Part shown: positions 19,474-32,573 of the stretch, piece after piece
Layout of the letters: every line of letters starts with the position of its first letter
Numbering within the stretch: position 1 is the first letter of the stretch
Assembly (NCBI GenBank): GCA_025059375.1
Contig: JANXDO010000001.1
Coordinates: 1-44,574, forward strand
Length of the DNA stretch: 44,574 nt
Direction of reading: 5' to 3'
From: Candidatus Nezhaarchaeota archaeon
GTDB lineage: Archaea > Thermoproteota > Methanomethylicia > Nezhaarchaeales > WYZ-LMO8
Notes under the pieces: generated by a model
Databases searched by the model: none
Seen by the model: only the letters and a program-made list of their open reading frames with translations
What the model was told of the DNA's origin: nothing
Translations under genes and position numbers: made by a program

Positions 19474-20058
19474 ATGAGCCTCCCGACACCTGAAGAGCTT
19501 AGAAGATTAAGGCTCATGGCTGGCTTGACGCAGAAGGAGCTAGCTGAAAGAGCTCGTGTAAGCCAGTCACTCATAGCTAGAATCGAATCCGGGACTGTTG
19601 ATCCTAGACTCTCAACACTGAGGAAGATAATGCAGGCCTTAATACCCTCGATTGGAGGGCTAAGAGCGGAGCAAGTAATGCACAGCCCCGTGATATGGGT
19701 TGAAGCCGATGAACCAGTTAAGAATGCCGTTGAGCTTATGGAGAAGTACGGTATATCACAAATACCAGTCTTGAAGGGTGGGAATGTTGTGGGAACAGTT
19801 CACGAGTCTACACTGTTAAGACACTTCTTAAAGACAAAGAACCCTGTCTCAATTTTTACTAAGCCTGTCCATGAGATCATGGACGAAGCTCTACCAATAA
19901 TCTCATCTTCAACGTCAATAAGTGATGTAATTGCATTACTTACTGGAGATAAACCAGCAGTACTAGTCATGGAGGGAGGTAAGCTTTTAGGGATCATAAC
20001 GAAGATAGACATAATATCTGCTATTAAGCCAAAGAGTAGGGGTACTCATGAGGCTTAG
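19474..20058 (+). CDS. HTH-XRE regulator with paired CBS domains
   Basis: The protein starts with a lambda-repressor-like helix-turn-helix (PTPEELRRLRLMAGLTQKELAERARVSQSLIARIE) followed by two CBS motifs (about 60-185). It resembles archaeal transcription regulators that sense adenosyl ligands such as AMP or SAM. I chose ATG 19474 (194 residues), where the conserved domain begins. An ATG at 19396 would add 26 atypical residues and overlap the divergent desulfurase start. Its stop overlaps the SepCysS start by 11 bp, so it probably heads the SepCysS-ThiI operon and may control it. An AT-rich TTATTTA near 19431 could be its promoter. Confidence 0.85.
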   Translation: MSLPTPEELRRLRLMAGLTQKELAERARVSQSLIARIESGTVDPRLSTLRKIMQALIPSIGGLRAEQVMHSPVIWVEADEPVKNAVELMEKYGISQIPVLKGGNVVGTVHESTLLRHFLKTKNPVSIFTKPVHEIMDEALPIISSSTSISDVIALLTGDKPAVLVMEGGKLLGIITKIDIISAIKPKSRGTHEA

Positions 20059-21253
20059 CAAGGATAAGTTGAGGAAGTACCTGAACATTAGGAGGGAGTT
20101 CTCTGAATCTAACTATATAAACATTAACCCCATACAACGCGGAGGTGTACTAAGTAAGGAAGCTAGATTGGCACTGCTTGAGTGGGGTGATGGCTACTCA
20201 GTATGTGACTTCTGTCCCCCAAAGATGGCTAGGCTCGATAAGATTACGAATCCACCCATAAGTGACTTTTACCAAGACCTCGCCACCTTTATAGGCATGG
20301 ATGAAGCACGGGTTGTAACTAGGTGCAGAGAAGCTAAGCTAATAACATTCATGATGCTTAGAGAACCAGGAGGCTACGTAATTCTAGACAGCTTAGCACA
20401 TTACAGCAGCTATCTGGCAGCTGAGTTTGCAGGTCTACGAGTAAAGGAGGTTCCAAACTCTGGTTATCCAGAGTTTAAAGTCAATGTTGACGCATACCTC
20501 TCGAAGATAGAGGAGGTGATTAAAGAGACAGGTAAACCGCCATCGCTGGCTCTCGTGACTCATGTTGACCATCAATATGGAAATTTAGTTGATGTCACCA
20601 AGGTTGCTAAGATATGCCATGAGTACGGTGTGCCAGTTGTACTTAATGCAGCATACACAGCTGGTGTAAGTCCAGTTAACGGTAAAGAGCTCGGAGTTGA
20701 TGTGATAGTAAGTAGTGGTCATAAGAGTTGGGCTGCATGTGCTCCCACAGGTATCTTGGCTATGACGAGCGAGATGGCCAAGAAGATACTAAGGCCATCA
20801 AGTATTGAGGGGGACGTAACGAAGAAGAGGTTCGTGGTGAAAGAGCTAGCTTTACTAGGCTGCACCGTGATGGGTGCACCACTAATGACCCTCATGGCCT
20901 CCTTCCCATACGTTGTTGAAAGGGTTGAGAGGTGGAGTGAGGAGGTGGAGAAGGCTCGCTACGTTGTCAGAGAGCTTGAGAGGATAGATGGATTCAGACA
21001 GCTTGGCGAGAAACCAAAGATGCATACATTGATCCACATGGAGTCCACTAGCTTCCATAAAGTCTCACTGAAGCATAAGCGTAGAGGCTTCTTCCTGCAT
21101 GATGAATTGAAAACTAGAGGAATAGTGGGGATTCAACCAGGCTTAACAAAACACTTTAAATTCAACGTCTACGGCTTATCTTGGAGCCAGATCGAGTACC
21201 TTGTCAGGAGCTTCCATGAGATAGCTAGAAAGTACGAGGTCGAAATTAAGTAA
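20048..21253 (+). CDS. pscS: SepCysS, Sep-tRNA:Cys-tRNA synthase
   Basis: This PLP enzyme converts O-phosphoseryl-tRNA(Cys) to cysteinyl-tRNA(Cys), the second step of tRNA-dependent cysteine synthesis. Family features in 401 residues are INPIQRGGVL, WGDGYSVCDFC with C53 and C56, the PLP lysine K226 in SSGHKSWAAC with C231, and THVDHQYGN. The pathway is known from methanogens, Archaeoglobus and several uncultured archaeal lineages, so it is a useful lineage marker. The SepRS partner is not in this window. It overlaps the HTH-CBS gene upstream and the ThiI gene downstream by 1 bp. Confidence 0.96.
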   Translation: MRLSKDKLRKYLNIRREFSESNYININPIQRGGVLSKEARLALLEWGDGYSVCDFCPPKMARLDKITNPPISDFYQDLATFIGMDEARVVTRCREAKLITFMMLREPGGYVILDSLAHYSSYLAAEFAGLRVKEVPNSGYPEFKVNVDAYLSKIEEVIKETGKPPSLALVTHVDHQYGNLVDVTKVAKICHEYGVPVVLNAAYTAGVSPVNGKELGVDVIVSSGHKSWAACAPTGILAMTSEMAKKILRPSSIEGDVTKKRFVVKELALLGCTVMGAPLMTLMASFPYVVERVERWSEEVEKARYVVRELERIDGFRQLGEKPKMHTLIHMESTSFHKVSLKHKRRGFFLHDELKTRGIVGIQPGLTKHFKFNVYGLSWSQIEYLVRSFHEIARKYEVEIK

Positions 21254-22434
21254 TGAACTTGAGGTTTGATACCGTAATAGTTAGACATGGAGCTGAGATT
21301 GGGGTCAAAAGCTCAATTACGAGATTAAGGTACTATAAGCTCCTTATGAAGAGTATAGTCGCCAAGATCAAAACCGAAGGCCTCAGTATTGATGGTATAG
21401 ATAGGAGATCTGGAAGAATATACATTAAGACCATCATGCCAGAAAGAGTTGCTGAAGCTCTATCTAAGGTCTTCGGGATATCTTCCACTTCACCGGCCAC
21501 CTCATGTAAGGCTGATTTAGATAGCATAGCTGATGTTGCGGTCAAATTAGCTGAAATGAGGGGGGAGAAGGGGGTGAAGTTTGCTGTTCAATGTAGGAGG
21601 GTCGGTCAACATCCATTCACTAGCATCGATGTGTGTAAATATGTGGGTGCTAAGGTGCTTGAAGCGAGGAGAAGTGATGGGTGGCGAGTCGACCTCAAGA
21701 AGCCTGATTACAAGATATACGTCGAAATAAGAGACCAAGATGCTTTCCTGTATACGGACATCGTAAGGGGTGTTGGAGGCCTCCCTCAAGGCTCTCAAAA
21801 AGGTTTACTATGCTTACTGAGTAGTGGCATCGATTCTCCAGTAGCTTCATGGCTAGTTATGAAGAGGGGGTGCACAGTTACACTAATACACTTCAACTTA
21901 CAACCTTTTTCAGGCGAAGAGACGCTTAAGAAGGTTGTTGACTTGGCAAAGTGCTTGGCGAGCTGGTCACCAGCATACAAAGTTAAGCTCCTTATGGTCC
22001 CCTTCGGCAAAATACTGGAAGAGATTGTTGAGAAGCATCCTCGAAAGCTTACGTGCATCTTATGCAAGAGGATGATGTTAAGGATATCAGAGAGGATCGC
22101 TCTTAAAAGGGGACTAATGGGAATTGTAACGGGAGACTCCATTGGTGAGCAGGCCAGCCAAACGCTGGAGAACATGGCTGTAATAAGCGAGGCCGTCAAA
22201 AGACTGCCGATTTATAGACCACTACTAGGCTTCGATAAGCCTGAGACAGAGAAAATAGCTAGAGAGATAGGGACCTACGACATCTCAGCTAGACCTGACG
22301 AGGGGTGCAAGGCGTCTCCTCCAAGACCATCAATATCAGCTAAACTAGATGAGGTCCTTGAGGTTGAAAGGACTTTAAATGTTGATGAGCTGATTGAAGA
22401 CGCTGCACATAGGGTCGTGGAACTAAAGGTTTAA
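21253..22434 (+). CDS. thiI: ThiI-type tRNA 4-thiouridine synthetase (methanogen type)
   Basis: The enzyme thiolates U8 of tRNA and may also feed thiamine synthesis. The 393 residues hold a ferredoxin-like/THUMP N-terminal half (about 1-170) and a PP-loop domain with LLSSGIDSP (188-196). There is no rhodanese domain. C268 and C271 (TCILC) and C352 (EGCKASPP) correspond to the cysteines of the methanogen enzyme that carry an Fe-S cluster and use sulfide as sulfur source. Coupling to SepCysS, which also needs a reduced sulfur donor, suggests a shared sulfur supply. It ends 4 bp inside the convergent thioredoxin reductase gene. Confidence 0.94.
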   Translation: MNLRFDTVIVRHGAEIGVKSSITRLRYYKLLMKSIVAKIKTEGLSIDGIDRRSGRIYIKTIMPERVAEALSKVFGISSTSPATSCKADLDSIADVAVKLAEMRGEKGVKFAVQCRRVGQHPFTSIDVCKYVGAKVLEARRSDGWRVDLKKPDYKIYVEIRDQDAFLYTDIVRGVGGLPQGSQKGLLCLLSSGIDSPVASWLVMKRGCTVTLIHFNLQPFSGEETLKKVVDLAKCLASWSPAYKVKLLMVPFGKILEEIVEKHPRKLTCILCKRMMLRISERIALKRGLMGIVTGDSIGEQASQTLENMAVISEAVKRLPIYRPLLGFDKPETEKIAREIGTYDISARPDEGCKASPPRPSISAKLDEVLEVERTLNVDELIEDAAHRVVELKV

Positions 22435-24288: not shown

Positions 24289-24948
24289 TTGCCTCGAGTA
24301 ATAATCTTTTCAACAACAACGATAGATGGCAGGATTGCTAGTAAGACTAGGTTTAGCCAGCTTAGTTGCCCCCACGACTTAAGGAGACTTCATGAGCTCA
24401 GAGCTCAATGTGATGCGGTGATGGTTGGTGCTAACACAGTTATAATTGATGACCCATCCCTACGCTTAAAGTACGTTGAGGGTAAAAATCCTGATAGAAT
24501 TGTTGTCGATGGACTTCTTAAAACACCACTAAATGCCAGGGTCTACGACTTGAGAATAGCAAGAACCATCGTGCTAACGACAAGAGCTGCTCCTGCTGAG
24601 AAAATTGAAAAATTGAAGTTTATGGGCGTTAAGGTTTTATGTCTAGCTGATAACCCTCCAATAGACATGAAGGTAGCTATGAAGGCTCTCGACGAGGAAG
24701 GCTATAAAACCGTCCTAGTTGAAGGTGGAGGAGAGCTCTTGTGGCACTTATTTAAGGATAGAGTTGCAAACGAGCTAAGGGTCACGATAGCTCCATACAT
24801 CTTCGGAGGCAAGGACTCTGTAAGCCTGGTTATGGGGGAGGGCTTCTCAACTACAGCTGAATCGCCCATCTTTAAGCTTAAATCCATTGAGAGATGTATG
24901 TGTGAAGATGAGGTTCACATAGTGTACGACGTTAGGTATAGGTCGTGA
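24289..24948 (+). CDS. arfC: ArfC / RibD C-terminal-type pyrimidine reductase of riboflavin and F420 synthesis
   Basis: This reductase converts the ribosyl side chain of 2,5-diamino-6-ribosylamino-pyrimidinone phosphate to ribityl, the archaeal order being reduction before deamination. Visible are STTTIDGRIA near the N terminus, RLHELRAQCDAVMVGANTVIIDDPSL, the NADPH-binding VEGGGELL, and a C-terminal IAPYIFGGKDS. I chose TTG 24289 (219 residues, the usual length), with AGGTCG 7-8 nt upstream and a TATA-like GATAAATA before it. An open frame to 24061 would add 76 residues unlike the family. The next gene starts 9 bp after it. Confidence 0.88.
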   Translation: MPRVIIFSTTTIDGRIASKTRFSQLSCPHDLRRLHELRAQCDAVMVGANTVIIDDPSLRLKYVEGKNPDRIVVDGLLKTPLNARVYDLRIARTIVLTTRAAPAEKIEKLKFMGVKVLCLADNPPIDMKVAMKALDEEGYKTVLVEGGGELLWHLFKDRVANELRVTIAPYIFGGKDSVSLVMGEGFSTTAESPIFKLKSIERCMCEDEVHIVYDVRYRS

Positions 24949-24957
24949 GGGTCCACC

Positions 24958-26088
24958 TTGATCATCAACGTAGGCTATGCTTTAATCGGTCAAGAGCTTG
25001 AGCTTCAACGAGACGTAAGCATAGAAATTGAGGGTCACTTAATAACGTCAATAAAGAGAGGATTTAGAGATAGAGGCTTAACGTTTAAGCACGGAATAGC
25101 AATGCCGACTCTTGTTAATGCGCACATGCACGTTCTGGATTACACTTTTCAAGAAGTTGGCTTGGACCTCGAAATAGGCGACCTCGTGAGTGAACCTCAT
25201 GGCCTTAAGCACAAACTCATATCAACATTGAGCGAACATGACATCCGCGCCTCAACTTCAAGGCTATTCAGTAGACTGATAGAGCAGGGGGTCCATCAGG
25301 TAGTGATCTTCTGTGAGAGGATAGAGGCTCTAAAACCTCTTCGTGATGCGGCTGAAGCACTTGGCTTAAATGCTATCCTCCTAGCTAGGCCAAAGAGAAT
25401 CGGAGACACTATCACGCTTCATGGTGCCCTAGAGGGAGCTGATGGCTTAGGCCTAGACTCGCCCCTACGATATTCCGTCGTGGAGCTCGAGGTCATGCGC
25501 GGCATGTGCTCTCAAAGGGGGTTATTGAAGGCATCACACATCTCTGAAACGCGTGGGGCACATGAACGTGGTGACTTAAAGCTAGCACTGGAGCACTTTG
25601 ACCCCGACATGATAGTTCACGGTGTGCATCTAGAAGAAGACGAAATTAAAGAGTTGGCGGATAAGGGCATAAGCCTCGTTCTATGTCCGAGATCAAACAT
25701 GTGGTTCTCATCAGGACTACCGCCATTAAAACTTTTCTTAAAACATGGCATTAACCTGCTCGTGGGTACAGATAATGCTGCTTGGGTTAATCCAGATTTG
25801 TGGAGAGAGCTTGAAGTCCTCTACAACCTATCTAGACTCCAAGGTCTTAAGTTAGATCCTCGAGAAATACTCAAAATCGCCACCGTAAATGCACATAGAG
25901 TCAAGAACATGAAGGTTAAGAATAACGTACTGGAAGAGGGCTTAGAGGCAAACTTCATAGTACTAGATGGTGAAGAGCTTGACATAATGTACTCTCACAA
26001 CATTTATGCTTCAATAGTCAAGAGAGCCTCGCTAAAAGCGGTAGTGCACAGGGTATTTAGTAGTCCTAGTCGTCAAAGAACCTTATGA
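24958..26088 (+). CDS. amidohydrolase of the cytosine-deaminase-like subgroup; candidate riboflavin-pathway deaminase
   Basis: The 376-residue TIM-barrel hydrolase has HxH (H56, H58) in NAHMHVLD, H194 and E197 in an H-x-x-E (HISE), H221/H224 in VHGVHL and D272 in GTDNA. HxH, HxxE, a further His and Asp form the set used by mononuclear-metal aminohydrolases such as cytosine, guanine and SAH deaminases, rather than by binuclear amidases. It begins 9 bp after arfC, so the two are surely co-transcribed, and it ends 23 bp inside the convergent cofH. The arfC product must be deaminated before it can be used by RibH or CofG/CofH, and this position fits that step. The substrate is inference. The start is TTG with GAGGGT upstream. 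Confidence 0.82.
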   Translation: MIINVGYALIGQELELQRDVSIEIEGHLITSIKRGFRDRGLTFKHGIAMPTLVNAHMHVLDYTFQEVGLDLEIGDLVSEPHGLKHKLISTLSEHDIRASTSRLFSRLIEQGVHQVVIFCERIEALKPLRDAAEALGLNAILLARPKRIGDTITLHGALEGADGLGLDSPLRYSVVELEVMRGMCSQRGLLKASHISETRGAHERGDLKLALEHFDPDMIVHGVHLEEDEIKELADKGISLVLCPRSNMWFSSGLPPLKLFLKHGINLLVGTDNAAWVNPDLWRELEVLYNLSRLQGLKLDPREILKIATVNAHRVKNMKVKNNVLEEGLEANFIVLDGEELDIMYSHNIYASIVKRASLKAVVHRVFSSPSRQRTL

Positions 26089-27223
26089 TCTCGTAAGTAG
26101 TCGTTCTCTGTGCTGGTCTTCGACCTACTCCTTTAATTAACCTCACAAACTCGGTAACCTCCATTTGAGTACCATAGATGGCTCCAGCCTCTCTAGATAT
26201 GTTCTCCTCCATGAGAGTGCCACCCAAGTCATTAGCTCCAACATTTAACATCATTTGAGCCATCTTAGGGCCAAGCTTAACCCAAGATGCTTGAATGTTC
26301 TTAATGTACCCAGCAAAGAAGAGCCTCGATACGGCGTGGACTTTTAAATCTTCAATCCAAGTACTACCTGGCCTACTTAACCCTTCTCTATAGAGTCTAG
26401 TCTTGTAGTGGACGAATGGTAGTAGAACAAACTCTGTGAACCCATGTGTCTCCTTTTGTATGTCCCTTATTATTTTCAAGTGCTTAGCCCTATGCCTATT
26501 CTCATCAACGTGTCCATACATCATCGTGGCGGTTGTTGGTATTCCAAGTCCATGGGCCTTTGTTATTATCTCAATCCACTGCTTTGTTAAAATCTTCCTT
26601 GGTGCTATAATTTTTCTAACTTCATCGTCGAGTATTTCAGCTGCAGTTCCGGGCATGCTATCAAGACCTGCATCTCTAAGCATCTTCAATGCCTCTTCGT
26701 ATGAAATCTCAAGCTTAGCTGCAATGTAATGGACCTCCTGAGGAGAAAAGGCATGAATATGAACTTCAGGAACCTTCGACTTTATACCCCTCAGAACCTC
26801 AAAGTAGTAGTCAACCGGGATACTGGGATTAATTGCTCCTTGAATGCAAACTTCAGTTGCCCCTCTTTTTCGGGCCTCATAAGCTCGAGACACAACCTCA
26901 TTTACTGGGAGAGTGTAAGCGTCATGACTCCCTACGGGTCTTGAGTAAGCACAAAATAAACATCTAATGGAACACTCATTTGTGAAGTTTATATTCCTGT
27001 TAACAACAAAGGTAACTACATCACCAACACACCTTTCCCTAACATAATCAGCTACTATGGCTAATATTAGGGCCTCATGAAAGCTAGAGTTTAGAAGTCT
27101 TAAGGCCTCCTCTTCATGTAACTCTCTGCCAGATAGAGCTTTATCTATGATCTCTGAAAATTGAGAATCAAGATTCTTCAAGCTGCCCTCAATAACCTTT
27201 AAATTAATTAAATCAGTAAGCAT
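26066..27223 (-). CDS. cofH: CofH, FO synthase subunit 2 (radical SAM)
   Basis: CofH joins tyrosine-derived hydroxybenzyl to 5-amino-6-ribitylaminouracil in F420 chromophore (FO) synthesis. The radical SAM cluster motif is C84-x3-C88-x2-C91 in NECSIRCLFCAYSR, after the usual FVVNRNINFTN. Further family segments are AFSPQEVHYIA and PGTAAEILDDEVR. Menaquinone enzymes MqnE and MqnC are close relatives, but pairing with cofG makes CofH the better call. The ATG lies in the last 11 bp of cofG and has a strong AGGAGG-type site upstream. Confidence 0.93.
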   Translation of the reverse strand: MLTDLINLKVIEGSLKNLDSQFSEIIDKALSGRELHEEEALRLLNSSFHEALILAIVADYVRERCVGDVVTFVVNRNINFTNECSIRCLFCAYSRPVGSHDAYTLPVNEVVSRAYEARKRGATEVCIQGAINPSIPVDYYFEVLRGIKSKVPEVHIHAFSPQEVHYIAAKLEISYEEALKMLRDAGLDSMPGTAAEILDDEVRKIIAPRKILTKQWIEIITKAHGLGIPTTATMMYGHVDENRHRAKHLKIIRDIQKETHGFTEFVLLPFVHYKTRLYREGLSRPGSTWIEDLKVHAVSRLFFAGYIKNIQASWVKLGPKMAQMMLNVGANDLGGTLMEENISREAGAIYGTQMEVTEFVRLIKGVGRRPAQRTTTYEIIRFFDD

Positions 27224-28382
27224 CCTCCCCCCTCCTGACTAAACCCCTTTCATCCGTAAGTAACTCAACCCTACTCCTAATGCTATCAGGTACCCATCCT
27301 AAAGCAATGTATTTGGGGTATACTGGAAGCCTTTCTCTAAGTTCAAACCCCATAACCTCCGTAGTCTTCTTAATTTCGCTTATTCTTGGCCAAGGATAAG
27401 CCATGTTTACGAAGTCTGGGGTTAACGGCGATATCCCACCCCAATCATTTATCCCAGCTAAGAGGTATGTTGCGTAAACTTCTGGATTTAAATTCGGTGG
27501 TGCCTGAACCGCTACATTACCCCCAAATATTAACCTAGCGATAGCTATGGTCTTCAATATGTCAAGCAACTTAGGTGGAGGGCACTTCTCCATAGGTGTT
27601 TCAGGTTCAGGCATGAAGTTCTGGATTATAACTTCTTGTATGTGTCCGTACTCCTCATGGACCTTCTTTATGGCGAAGAGTGACGCCATCCTCTCTTCCC
27701 AAGTCTCTCCAATACCTATTAATATGCCCGTCGTGAATGGAATTCTTAGTTCACCTGCTTCCCTAATCATTTTTAACCTAACTTTAGGATCTTTAGTTGG
27801 CGACTTCTCGTGGGGCATCCCCCTTTCCATTAGCCTTTCACTTATTGACTCAAGCATGAGCCCCATGCTTGCATTAAATGGTTTAAGTTCAGCCATTTCG
27901 CTTTTAGTTAAAACACCTATATTTGTGTGAGGCATCATGATCTTAGTTTCATTTATGACCTTCTCCTCAAAATCCCTTACATACTCTACTGTGGAGCTAT
28001 AATTCATGGACTTGAGAGCCTTTTTAGCCTCTTCATAAACTTCTTCAGGTCGATCCCCAGTGCTAATTAAAACTTCCTTAGCCCTAAGCAACTCACCATC
28101 CTTAACCACCTTCATTGCCTCGTCGATCCCCATGTATGCCTTAGTAACGCCAACTCTAAAGCCACAGTATGAACATTGATTTCTACATAACCTCGTTAGA
28201 GGGACGAAGACCTTCCTTGAGTACGTCACAACTTTACCGTAGTGAGAAACTTTAACGCTTAATGCTGTAGCTAAAAGCATTAGAACTTCATCAGCATTAG
28301 CCTTAGCAAGGACAATGACGTCATTAAGTGTTAGTTTTCCCTCAAAGCCCTTAACCAAAGCCTCAAGGAACTCACCCCTCAT
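27213..28382 (-). CDS. cofG: CofG, FO synthase subunit 1 (radical SAM)
   Basis: CofG completes FO, the deazaflavin of coenzyme F420, from the CofH product. The radical SAM motif is C66-x3-C70-x2-C73 (LCRNQCSYCGF) after YSRKVFVPLT. TGILIGIGETWEER and NFMPEPETPM are also family features. I chose ATG 28382 (389 residues), with a GGGGAT-like site upstream; a TTG two codons earlier is possible. cofG and cofH overlap by 11 bp and form an operon facing the arfC-amidohydrolase pair, so four neighbouring genes serve flavin and deazaflavin synthesis. Confidence 0.95.
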   Translation of the reverse strand: MRGEFLEALVKGFEGKLTLNDVIVLAKANADEVLMLLATALSVKVSHYGKVVTYSRKVFVPLTRLCRNQCSYCGFRVGVTKAYMGIDEAMKVVKDGELLRAKEVLISTGDRPEEVYEEAKKALKSMNYSSTVEYVRDFEEKVINETKIMMPHTNIGVLTKSEMAELKPFNASMGLMLESISERLMERGMPHEKSPTKDPKVRLKMIREAGELRIPFTTGILIGIGETWEERMASLFAIKKVHEEYGHIQEVIIQNFMPEPETPMEKCPPPKLLDILKTIAIARLIFGGNVAVQAPPNLNPEVYATYLLAGINDWGGISPLTPDFVNMAYPWPRISEIKKTTEVMGFELRERLPVYPKYIALGWVPDSIRSRVELLTDERGLVRRGEDAY

Positions 28383-28505
28383 CAGCAATCCCCTATCACA
28401 TCAGCTGCACTATCATCCCATCATTTCAACGTCTTAAAGCAGATGCTATAGGGCGTGTGTGACAACCAGCTATAAATAATCAATCAAAGGCCTCAGAGAT
28501 AAGCG

Positions 28506-29221: not shown

Positions 29222-30922
29222 TTGAGTTATGAGACCATAGAGACAGACGTCCTAATTGTGGGAGCTGGTGGTGCCGGCCTTAGAGCTGCAATAGAGGCTG
29301 CTAAGTACAACGTCGATGTAACTGTGGTGTGCAAGGAGCTTCTTGGGAAGGCACATACAGTCATGGCTGAGGGTGGAATCAACGCTGCTCTAGGGAATGT
29401 AGATCCAAACGACAATTGGATGGAACACTTCCTCGACACGGTTGAGGGGGGCGTATGGCTTAATGACCAGGATTTAGCAGAGGTCTTAGTTAAGGAAGCT
29501 CCAGACAGAATATTCGACCTTGAGGAGTGGGGTGCAGTTTTTGACAGAACACCCGACGGGAAAATAGCACAACGACCCTTTGGAAAGTCTAGACACCCTC
29601 GAACCGTCTTCGTATCCGACTATACAGGCCATGAGATCATGACCACTCTGTGTGATGAGGTTAGGAGACTAGGTATTCGAATCATGGAAGAAGTCTTTGT
29701 TAGCAAACTACTTACAAGTAGCAATACTGTAACCGGGGCATTCGCCTTCGACTTTAAGTCTGGAGACTTCATAGTTTTCAGAAGCAAGGCCATAATCTTA
29801 GCTACGGGAGGGGCTGGACGTATGTACGAAAGAACCACAAACCCTGCATCAGCCACAGGCGATGGGAAGATCCTTGCTCTCGAAGCTGGTGCCGAGCTCA
29901 TGGATATGGAGATGTTTCAATTCCACCCTACAGCGATGGTATGGCCACCTTCATGTAACGGAGTCCTCGTGACGGAAGGTGTTCGAGGTGAAGGTGGGAT
30001 CCTACTCAATGTTCAGGGTGAGAGGTTCATGAAGCGCTATCATGAACTATTGGAGCTAGCTCCTAGAGACGTCGTTGCACGCGCCATATGGAGAGAAATC
30101 GAGGAGGGGCGAGGAACCAAACATGGCGGTGTCTATCTAACGGTGGCCCACCTACCCCCTGAAAGGATACGTGAAAGACTTAAGACCATGTACAAGCAGT
30201 TCCTACTGACAGGCGTAGATATAACTAAGGAGCCCATGGAGGTCGCTCCAGCTGCACACTACTATATGGGCGGTGTCCGTGCAAATGTACGTACAGAAAC
30301 TTCAGTTAAAGGTCTCTTTGCAGCCGGTGAGGAAATGTCTGGTGTTCATGGAGCCAATAGACTTGGGGGGAACTCACTTCTAGCCACGCAAGTCTTCGGT
30401 AAACGAGCTGGTGAGAATGCAGCCATATTTGCTAGAGAGAACTTGAAGGGGTCAATCAACAAGTCACAAGTGGAGCTCGAAATGCAGAAATTTAGTAACC
30501 TCCTTAAACCCAATAATGATAGGCTGTCTATTGCCGAAGTCCGTAAAAGACTTTGTAAGGTCATGTGGGAGAATGCAGGCATTGCACGAACTGAAGAAGG
30601 CCTTACAAAAGTTGAGAATGAAATCGAGTGGATGAAAGCTAACATGCTTCCAAAAATTGTACCAGTGGAATCAAGCACGCTACACTATAACAAGGAGATA
30701 GTCGAAATCTTGGAGACTTTCAACCTCATAAGGGTTGCAGAGATACTCGTCAAAGCTGCTAGAATAAGGAAGGAAAGCCGTGGTGCTCATTGGAGGCTTG
30801 ATTATCCAAAAAGAGATGACGCTAACTGGCTGAAGCACATAACCTGGTATCTAGATGGAGGGGTCCTCAAGTACAGGTTTGATCCCGTGATTATGACCCT
30901 CATAAAGCAACCTACAAGCTGA
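29222..30922 (+). CDS. tfrA: fumarate reductase / succinate dehydrogenase flavoprotein subunit (TfrA-like)
   Basis: This FAD subunit reduces fumarate or oxidises succinate. In 566 residues I see the N-terminal FAD fold (VGAGGAGLRAAIEAA), H45 in KAHTVMAEGG where family members can bind FAD covalently, FQFHPTAM, the catalytic-arginine region RGEGGILLNVQGERF, HYYMGGVRAN and GANRLGGNSLLATQVFGKRAG. The gene just downstream fuses Fe-S and HdrB-like modules, as in methanogen thiol:fumarate reductase, so the electron donor is probably a thiol pair or another soluble carrier. No membrane anchor genes are present. The start is TTG with AGGGGG upstream. Confidence 0.88.
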   Translation: MSYETIETDVLIVGAGGAGLRAAIEAAKYNVDVTVVCKELLGKAHTVMAEGGINAALGNVDPNDNWMEHFLDTVEGGVWLNDQDLAEVLVKEAPDRIFDLEEWGAVFDRTPDGKIAQRPFGKSRHPRTVFVSDYTGHEIMTTLCDEVRRLGIRIMEEVFVSKLLTSSNTVTGAFAFDFKSGDFIVFRSKAIILATGGAGRMYERTTNPASATGDGKILALEAGAELMDMEMFQFHPTAMVWPPSCNGVLVTEGVRGEGGILLNVQGERFMKRYHELLELAPRDVVARAIWREIEEGRGTKHGGVYLTVAHLPPERIRERLKTMYKQFLLTGVDITKEPMEVAPAAHYYMGGVRANVRTETSVKGLFAAGEEMSGVHGANRLGGNSLLATQVFGKRAGENAAIFARENLKGSINKSQVELEMQKFSNLLKPNNDRLSIAEVRKRLCKVMWENAGIARTEEGLTKVENEIEWMKANMLPKIVPVESSTLHYNKEIVEILETFNLIRVAEILVKAARIRKESRGAHWRLDYPKRDDANWLKHITWYLDGGVLKYRFDPVIMTLIKQPTS

Positions 30923-30932
30923 GGTGAAGTTT

Positions 30933-32573
30933 GTGAGTGGAAGGATAACCCTTAAGGTCTTCCGCTACAATCCGGCCAAGGACGAAGAACCCCACTACGA
31001 CACCTACGAAGTCCCCTTTGTTGAAGGGGCGAGGGTACTAGACCTTCTAAACTACGTTAAAGAGAACTTAGATAGTACACTGGCCTACCGCTGGGAGTGT
31101 AGAGCAGGTCAGTGTGGAAGTTGTGCGATGATGGTTAATGGAAAAGCAGCATTAGCTTGCCAAACATTAGTCTCTCCTGAGGATAAAGAGATTACTTTAG
31201 AGCCACTTCCCATCTTCCCAGTCATTAAGGATTTAGTCGTAGACGTGGAGAAAGGCGTTAAGAAGATTCTTAAAGCCAGACCATACGTCCATAGAGGATC
31301 ACCCTACAAGAGGCCCGAGATAGTCTATAGCTGGGAGATTGAGGAGGTCAAACCTTTAAGAGAATGCATTGAGTGTTGGTGCTGCATATCCATGTGCCCT
31401 GTTGTGAAGGTTGCTTGGGATGTTTATGGGGGTCCTATAGTTATGAACAGTGTGGCTAAGGTGGCTCTTGACCGTCGAAATGTATTCGACCATGTACTCT
31501 TAGCTTATTTAGATGGTTTAAATGCGTGCACTCAGTGTGCTATGTGTTATGAAGTGTGCCCTAAGGAGATAGAAATACCAGAGAAGGCTGTAGGTCGAAT
31601 GCGCTACATAGCTTACAATAAACGCAACCTCATAAGGCCAGATCATCGACTCATAGTTGAAAGCATGAAGAGGGATTACAACCCACTCATGGAGCCTGCA
31701 ATGAGCAGAGCTAATTGCTTTGGTGAGTGGGCTGGTCTTCCAGCCTTAGACACACCAATAGCTAGAGAGGATGCTGAAATCCTCTACTTCGTTGGTTGCA
31801 TGGCTAGTTGGAGAGAACAGGCAGTTGCCAGAGCAACAGCTACTTTACTTAAGCTTGTAGGAGCAAACTTTACAGTTCTAGGTCCCTATGAGCATGATTG
31901 TGGCTCGGTTCTCTTCAGGTTAGGGGATTTAGAGCTCGCCAGATCCTTTGCCCTGTACATGAAAAATTCACTTAAAAGGTACAATAAAATACACACAATA
32001 GTAACTTCATGTGCAGGGTGCTATAGAACTTTTAAGCGTGATTACCCGGAAAAATTAGGCATAGATCTTGGAGCCCAGATACTGCACTCGTCCGAACTAT
32101 TTAACCAGTACTTAAAGGATGGAAAGCTAAACATTAGAGAGGAGCTAAACCTAAGGGCAACATACCATGATCCATGTCACCTTGGAAGACACGTAGGGGT
32201 CTTTGATCCGCCTCGAGAGATAATCAAGGTAATAGGCGTCGATCTACAGGAAATGCTTAATGGAAGATATCGAGATAAGTCACTATGCTGTGGAGCCGGT
32301 GGGGGAGTAAGGTCAGGTTTCCGTGAAGTTGCTAGAGAAGTAGCAGCTTACAGGATACGCATGGATGTACCCAAAGAAGTACCCATGACCGTTCATGCAT
32401 GCCCCTTCTGCCACTTCAACTTCGAGGATGCTGTTAAAACTAAAGGCTTCAAGCTAATCAATGTAGACTTAACAGAGCTACTTCTCACAGCAGTGATGGG
32501 GCCCGATGCATCTAAAGTAATTGGAAAAGAAAGATACGAAACAATAATACATCTTTCACATAGACAAAGATAA
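30933..32573 (+). CDS. tfrB: TfrB-like Fe-S subunit with C-terminal CCG (HdrB-type) domains
   Basis: The electron-transfer subunit of the fumarate reductase. Numbering from this start: a plant-type [2Fe-2S] site (C56, C61, C64, C76), two [4Fe-4S] sites (CIECWCCISMC and CTQCAMCYEVC, about 145-209), and two cysteine-rich CCG domains as in HdrB/HdrD. The second CCG domain is intact (DPCHLGRH, LCCGAGGG, ACPFC). The first reads HDCGS, with aspartate replacing one of the paired cysteines. This layout matches thiol:fumarate reductase, which couples CoM-SH and CoB-SH oxidation to fumarate reduction; similar fusions exist outside methanogens. I chose GTG 30933 because AGGTGA lies 5 nt upstream; GTG 30924 is the alternative. 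Confidence 0.88.
   Translation: MSGRITLKVFRYNPAKDEEPHYDTYEVPFVEGARVLDLLNYVKENLDSTLAYRWECRAGQCGSCAMMVNGKAALACQTLVSPEDKEITLEPLPIFPVIKDLVVDVEKGVKKILKARPYVHRGSPYKRPEIVYSWEIEEVKPLRECIECWCCISMCPVVKVAWDVYGGPIVMNSVAKVALDRRNVFDHVLLAYLDGLNACTQCAMCYEVCPKEIEIPEKAVGRMRYIAYNKRNLIRPDHRLIVESMKRDYNPLMEPAMSRANCFGEWAGLPALDTPIAREDAEILYFVGCMASWREQAVARATATLLKLVGANFTVLGPYEHDCGSVLFRLGDLELARSFALYMKNSLKRYNKIHTIVTSCAGCYRTFKRDYPEKLGIDLGAQILHSSELFNQYLKDGKLNIREELNLRATYHDPCHLGRHVGVFDPPREIIKVIGVDLQEMLNGRYRDKSLCCGAGGGVRSGFREVAREVAAYRIRMDVPKEVPMTVHACPFCHFNFEDAVKTKGFKLINVDLTELLLTAVMGPDASKVIGKERYETIIHLSHRQR

Follow-up and report, generated by a model that had tools for sequence, protein, structure and literature searches.

Archaeal riboflavin and F420 synthesis has been described as a pathway with three gaps left, for two of which candidates have been put forward (PMC8305020). 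The slot between arfC and the phosphatase gap is given to MJ0699/HVO_2483 (PMC8305020 Table 6); HVO_2483, which is 34% identical to MJ0699, was predicted by Rodionova et al. in 2017 (PMID 28073944, as relayed in Table 6 of PMC8305020). Two other papers treat the deamination as RibD- or Rib2-like (PMC8256712, PMC9478397), and in a 2026 review the later steps are presented as conserved between archaea and bacteria (PMC13028884). Outside this pathway, there is an amidohydrolase precedent for the deamination of isocytosine, the enzyme Vcz (PMC6186785). A sequence-only reading of the DNA studied here had held the archaeal deaminase to be unassigned. That statement must be narrowed: a candidate has been in print since 2017 (PMID 28073944, via PMC8305020), and what stands of it is that our literature search found no report of activity for the archaeal deaminase step.

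Here, we set beside these systems a gene in the window, by which we mean the whole stretch of 44,574 nucleotides that was analyzed, from an archaeal genome of 1.47 Mb. The product of this gene is very probably the pyrimidine deaminase of archaeal riboflavin/F420 synthesis, acting straight after ArfC as a mononuclear-metal amidohydrolase, for which we infer both substrate and reaction. It is a strongly linked, putative member of a family that has already been predicted, and the idea as such is not new. The features on which the argument draws are these:

24289..24948, + strand: arfC, 2,5-diamino-6-ribosylamino-4(3H)-pyrimidinone 5'-phosphate reductase (TIGR01508, ORF residues 78-287)
24947..24952, + strand: GAGGGT, read over the arfC stop codon, 5 nt before the TTG; putative ribosome-binding-like motif
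24958..26088, + strand: amidohydrolase (COG0402/PRK07213-like), proposed 2,5-diamino-6-ribitylamino-4(3H)-pyrimidinone 5'-phosphate deaminase
25123..25131, + strand: codons of H56-x-H58, invariant; two metal ligands, a role assigned by homology to mononuclear amidohydrolases
25537..25548, + strand: codons of H194-x-x-E197, invariant; predicted metal ligand and proton-shuttling Glu
25618..25620, + strand: codon of H221, invariant; predicted catalytic His
25690..25692, + strand: codon of R245 (CPR-S/A-N motif), subfamily-specific; candidate substrate/phosphate contact
25771..25776, + strand: codons of D272-N273, invariant in the family; predicted metal ligand/general base Asp and subfamily-specific Asn
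26066..27223, - strand: cofH, 5-amino-6-(D-ribitylamino)uracil--L-tyrosine 4-hydroxyphenyl transferase (TIGR03551)
27213..28388, - strand: cofG (TIGR03550)

The gene is an ORF of 376 codons for amino acids at 24958-26088 on the + strand, with a TTG start. The sequence-only reading placed it 9 bp behind arfC and facing cofH-cofG, and both statements hold. The arfC stop codon occupies 24946-24948, leaving a 9-bp gap; cofH-cofG run convergently towards the amidohydrolase gene, whose 3' end overlaps that of cofH by 23 bp. NCBIfam models name all three neighbors above their cut-offs: the upstream one is a true archaeal ArfC (TIGR01508, 213.6 bits vs 186.45), and the downstream two are CofH (TIGR03551, 508.8 bits vs 374.1) and CofG (TIGR03550, 435.7 bits vs 213.35). 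The arfC ORF is open from 24061, yet its ArfC domain begins only at residue 78; the domain boundary and the lengths of homologs make the TTG at 24289 the likely start. The N-terminal 76 residues of that ORF were rejected as coding sequence and are probably non-coding.

Two further gene pairs in the window deserve mention in their own right. At 20048-22434, a SepCysS gene (O-phosphoseryl-tRNA:Cys-tRNA synthase, 527 bits vs a cut-off of 365) is directly followed by ThiI, placing a methanogen-type enzyme of tRNA-dependent cysteine synthesis beside a tRNA thiolation enzyme in a Thermoproteota archaeon. At 29222-32573, an ORF for a fumarate reductase-type flavoprotein precedes a TfrB-like iron-sulfur subunit, which reaches 384.2 bits against the cut-off of 385 of the CoM/CoB-dependent TfrB model.

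The window protein can be classed, on its sequence, as a deaminase-type amidohydrolase. Pfam finds Amidohydro_1 (PF01979) at residues 47-357 (E=1.2e-23) and matches the protein neither to PF00383 (dCMP_cyt_deam_1) nor to PF02633 (the creatininase family). The best NCBIfam model is PRK07213 (NF005552), named “chlorohydrolase”, which covers residues 2-366 at 211.6 bits (E=1.6e-62); the remaining COG0402 models cover chiefly the C-terminal half. Because 211.6 bits lies under the PRK07213 cut-off of 294, the window protein appears to be a divergent relative of that family and no formal member of it. The cut-off is passed by syntenic thaumarchaeal and Asgard relatives that lie next to arfC (L078, L082 and L044). 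The name “chlorohydrolase” is an automatic one, for which the present analysis offers no support.

An AlphaFold2 model of the protein (mean pLDDT 91.3) matches solved structures in Foldseek with E-values down to 2.8e-24 and TM-scores by query of 0.77-0.85. The best of these matches are MTA/SAH and adenosine deaminases, the isocytosine deaminase Vcz, triazine hydrolases and guanine deaminases. The residue set named in the sequence-only reading survives in all but one position: H56, H58, H194, E197, H221 and D272 are invariant in family alignments of 15 and of 32 sequences, the latter taking in Asgard and bacterial sequences. H224 is present in the window protein, but it is not conserved across these alignments, and we rejected it as an active-site residue.

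That reading had also suggested looking for synteny and co-occurrence with arfC, and both were observed. At 70 of 80 named homologous loci, the gene and arfC share a strand, with gaps of -44 to +37 bp between them. These loci come from public genomes, the genome scan having used a four-sequence alignment; the sample is rich in Nitrososphaeria and takes in Bathyarchaeia, Hecatellales and two Asgard lineages. Among relatives from the same phylum, L031, L032, L033, L039, L041, L044, L045 and L046 have the gene directly adjoining or overlapping arfC, and several of them also carry cofG-cofH. Most lineages have the amidohydrolase gene ahead of arfC, and the family of the window (L031, L032) has it behind arfC, which indicates that the linkage has been kept through rearrangement. 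In two Asgard lineages, the amidohydrolase gene sits inside riboflavin operons: Jordarchaeum (L078) has ribB, archaeal ribC, ribH, GTP cyclohydrolase IIa, amidohydrolase and arfC, and Helarchaeota (L082) has ribB, ribC, ribH, amidohydrolase and arfC, the last recognized by BLAST. The conserved linkage places this arrangement far beyond chance. By itself, however, linkage cannot tell a deaminase from the other unassigned steps of the pathway.

At L067 (5989-7206), the amidohydrolase sequence is divided between two ORFs and the wider match contains a single in-frame TGA; no RibD_C protein was found in that genome. We read the split as a decayed gene or an assembly error.

Across 61 relatives, the subfamily and RibD_C occur together in 15 genomes and are both missing from 42; two genomes have the amidohydrolase only and two have RibD_C only (Fisher's exact p=2e-10, a value that ignores phylogeny). 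The two amidohydrolase-only genomes are MAGs that are 75-76% complete. The RibD_C match in G034 was rejected as an arfC, as it scores 45.5 bits against 150.15 for the domain model and does not match TIGR01508. This leaves one clear exception, G028 (91% complete), which has a true arfC and no match to the amidohydrolase family anywhere in the genome; incompleteness could explain it. The arfC of G028 (L174 2716-4057, on G028:C90) lies beside a gene for a membrane protein resembling a vitamin transporter (ECF S-component).

The genome of the window itself contains candidates, as judged by sequence, for the remaining steps of the pathway up to the phosphatase. A ribB-ribC-ribH-arfA cluster is found at G000:C1:52257-54580, and a separate creatininase-family protein (PF02633, 154 bits) is a candidate ArfB, although no NCBIfam equivalog certifies it as such. 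An established riboflavin deaminase elsewhere in the genome would have told against the gene in the window, and we looked for one. The sole PF00383 protein is dCMP-deaminase-like: its best model is ComEB/dCMP deaminase, at 130.5 bits under a cut-off of 219, and its neighborhood showed no flavin gene. Two of the control genomes, those of M. jannaschii and S. acidocaldarius, match RibD_C, GCH_III and Creatininase, as well as PRK07213 at E<=1e-40, and neither matches PF00383. At that same threshold, PRK07213 is found in 4/4 archaeal and 0/10 bacterial control genomes.

The family to which the window protein belongs is set off from other amidohydrolases. With a 15-row profile run over the 61 relatives, full-length family members score at least 385 bits and other amidohydrolases at most 146; lower-scoring pieces in G001 and G005 are members truncated at contig ends. 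In a maximum-likelihood tree, ordinary COG0402 proteins form a separate clade (100/100). Six residues hardly vary among 45 family homologs: K84, R144, R245, N273, E284 and R356. They are all but missing from 11 ordinary archaeal COG0402 proteins, one of which has E at 284 and two of which are partial and poorly aligned. Position 245 is R in 45/45 homologs and in 0/11 generic proteins; position 273 is N in the family and G, S or K in the generic proteins. Because four of the six are basic, they would fit a phosphorylated substrate.

Relatives were also seen in two other settings. In Acidimicrobiia and a Gemmatimonadetes MAG (L092 270-1535, L106 221-1492 and L110 5992-7257), they retain R245, D272, N273, E284 and R356; in L092 and L110, the two that were aligned, K84 is replaced by R and N247 by H. 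Their neighbors resemble MmgE/PrpD, an aminotransferase and, in L110, a hydantoinase, and there is no arfC nearby. These proteins probably run a different reaction in a catabolic-looking context, which raises the possibility that the wider family does not have a single function. PRK07213-like proteins of 339-350 aa are also found on haloarchaeal megaplasmids (L173 5878-6897 and L172 5881-6933; 245-270 bits), with no flavin genes nearby.

Taken together, the linkage to arfC, the riboflavin operons, the co-occurrence, an active site of the deaminase type and the fact that no other convincing candidate, CDA-fold or otherwise, turned up point to the deaminase step, in support of what the sequence-only reading had proposed. 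In the mechanism that we envisage, ArfC would first reduce the ribosyl side chain and the amidohydrolase would act next. The metal would be held by H56, H58, H194 and D272, with D272 and H221 activating a bound water. This water would attack C2 of the 2-amino-4-oxopyrimidine ring in 2,5-diamino-6-ribitylaminopyrimidinone 5'-phosphate, and E197 would protonate the ring nitrogen, so that ammonia leaves and 5-amino-6-ribitylaminouracil 5'-phosphate is formed. K84, R144, R245, R356, N273 and E284 may hold the ribityl-phosphate arm and the ring substituents. The dephosphorylated product would be common to RibH (for riboflavin) and CofH/CofG (for F420), which would explain the place of the gene between arfC and cofH-cofG.

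It is unlikely that the enzyme is a deaminase of this pathway acting on another intermediate, either the ribosyl compound before its reduction or the dephosphorylated ribityl compound. Such a variant draws on the fact that the order of steps is established in few archaea, and the phosphatase is likewise unassigned (PMC8305020). Against it, archaeal reduction is reported to come before deamination (PMID 11889103, as cited in PMC8305020 and PMC13028884), and the invariant basic residues would favor a phosphorylated compound.

That the gene serves the ArfB step seems very unlikely. It could in principle encode the formamide hydrolase that takes the formyl group off the product of GTP cyclohydrolase III: amide cleavage is within the reach of amidohydrolases, the gene adjoins a GTP cyclohydrolase in Jordarchaeum, and the creatininase-family protein of its own genome lacks equivalog support as ArfB. 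We take ArfB to be a creatininase-like protein, however, and this genome already has one, while M. jannaschii carries both the creatininase and the PRK07213 families. The HxH/HxxE/H/D set also fits deamination, as do the closest folds, most of which are ring deaminases, and the characterized ArfB is described as an Fe(II) enzyme (PMID 19309161, as cited in PMC9478397).

We consider it highly improbable as well that the protein deaminates S-adenosylhomocysteine, methylthioadenosine, 5'-deoxyadenosine, guanine or the like, and that its proximity to arfC is incidental. The nearest solved structures are indeed MTA/SAH/adenosine and guanine deaminases. But an incidental neighbor would hardly be tied to arfC at so many loci and sit within whole riboflavin operons, and the gap in profile scores, the separate clade and the family-specific residues absent from generic enzymes all set this protein apart from ordinary COG0402 proteins. 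It is extremely unlikely that the step belongs in Archaea to a RibD/Rib2-like protein of the CDA fold, which reviews are inclined to suppose, and that the amidohydrolase gene is an accessory: the genome does hold one PF00383 protein, and some papers have Rib2 or RibD act in archaea (PMC8256712, PMC9478397), yet that one protein looks like a dCMP deaminase, with no flavin gene seen next to it, and M. jannaschii and S. acidocaldarius match RibD_C and the amidohydrolase family rather than PF00383.

Our preferred reading, in which the amidohydrolase is the pathway deaminase, can be extended from this locus to Archaea more widely. The family is likely a general archaeal riboflavin/F420 deaminase that shares no ancestry with RibD/Rib2 and has been passed on together with arfC in Thermoproteota, Asgard and euryarchaeal lineages, with the Acidimicrobiia relatives having taken up a different reaction. 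We found in the literature no experimentally assigned enzyme for archaeal flavin/F420 deamination, and papers still assume RibD or Rib2. If our proposal is true, the pathway has no gap left before the phosphatase, the many proteins now labeled “chlorohydrolase” can take a new name, and Archaea rely on a fold that has no relation to that of the bacterial and fungal deaminases. The documented linkage also offers syntenic targets, some of them in cultivable groups.

How, then, does the window protein compare with the systems already described? MJ0699/HVO_2483 was predicted for the same slot that we propose for it. The genomes of M. jannaschii and H. volcanii match PRK07213 at E<=1e-40, a genome-level result that makes it likely that MJ0699/HVO_2483 and the window protein are of the same family. 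What the present analysis adds to that prediction is the documented linkage to arfC in Thermoproteota and Asgard lineages. PRK07213 (NF005552), an archaeal COG0402 subfamily, is the best full-length match, with the window protein under its cut-off. Fungal Rib2 has the same substrate as the one proposed here (PMC8256712), and the chemistry proposed for the window protein is that of Rib2 and of the deaminase domain of RibD/RibG. These are, however, zinc enzymes of the CDA fold (cytidine deaminase superfamily) with HxE/PCxxC motifs, whereas the window protein is a predicted TIM-barrel amidohydrolase of unrelated fold. That fold is shared, at TM-scores by query of 0.77-0.85 and about 15-22% identity, with the isocytosine deaminase Vcz (7ww2), guanine deaminase (6ohb, 2i9u) and MTA/SAH deaminases (4dyk, 1p1m), with which the window protein presumably also has its metal and catalytic residues in common. 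Two of these enzymes, Vcz and guanine deaminase, have a 2-amino-4-oxopyrimidine ring as their target; the reacting substructure in the proposed substrate is isocytosine, and this makes Vcz a precedent for an amidohydrolase as its deaminase.
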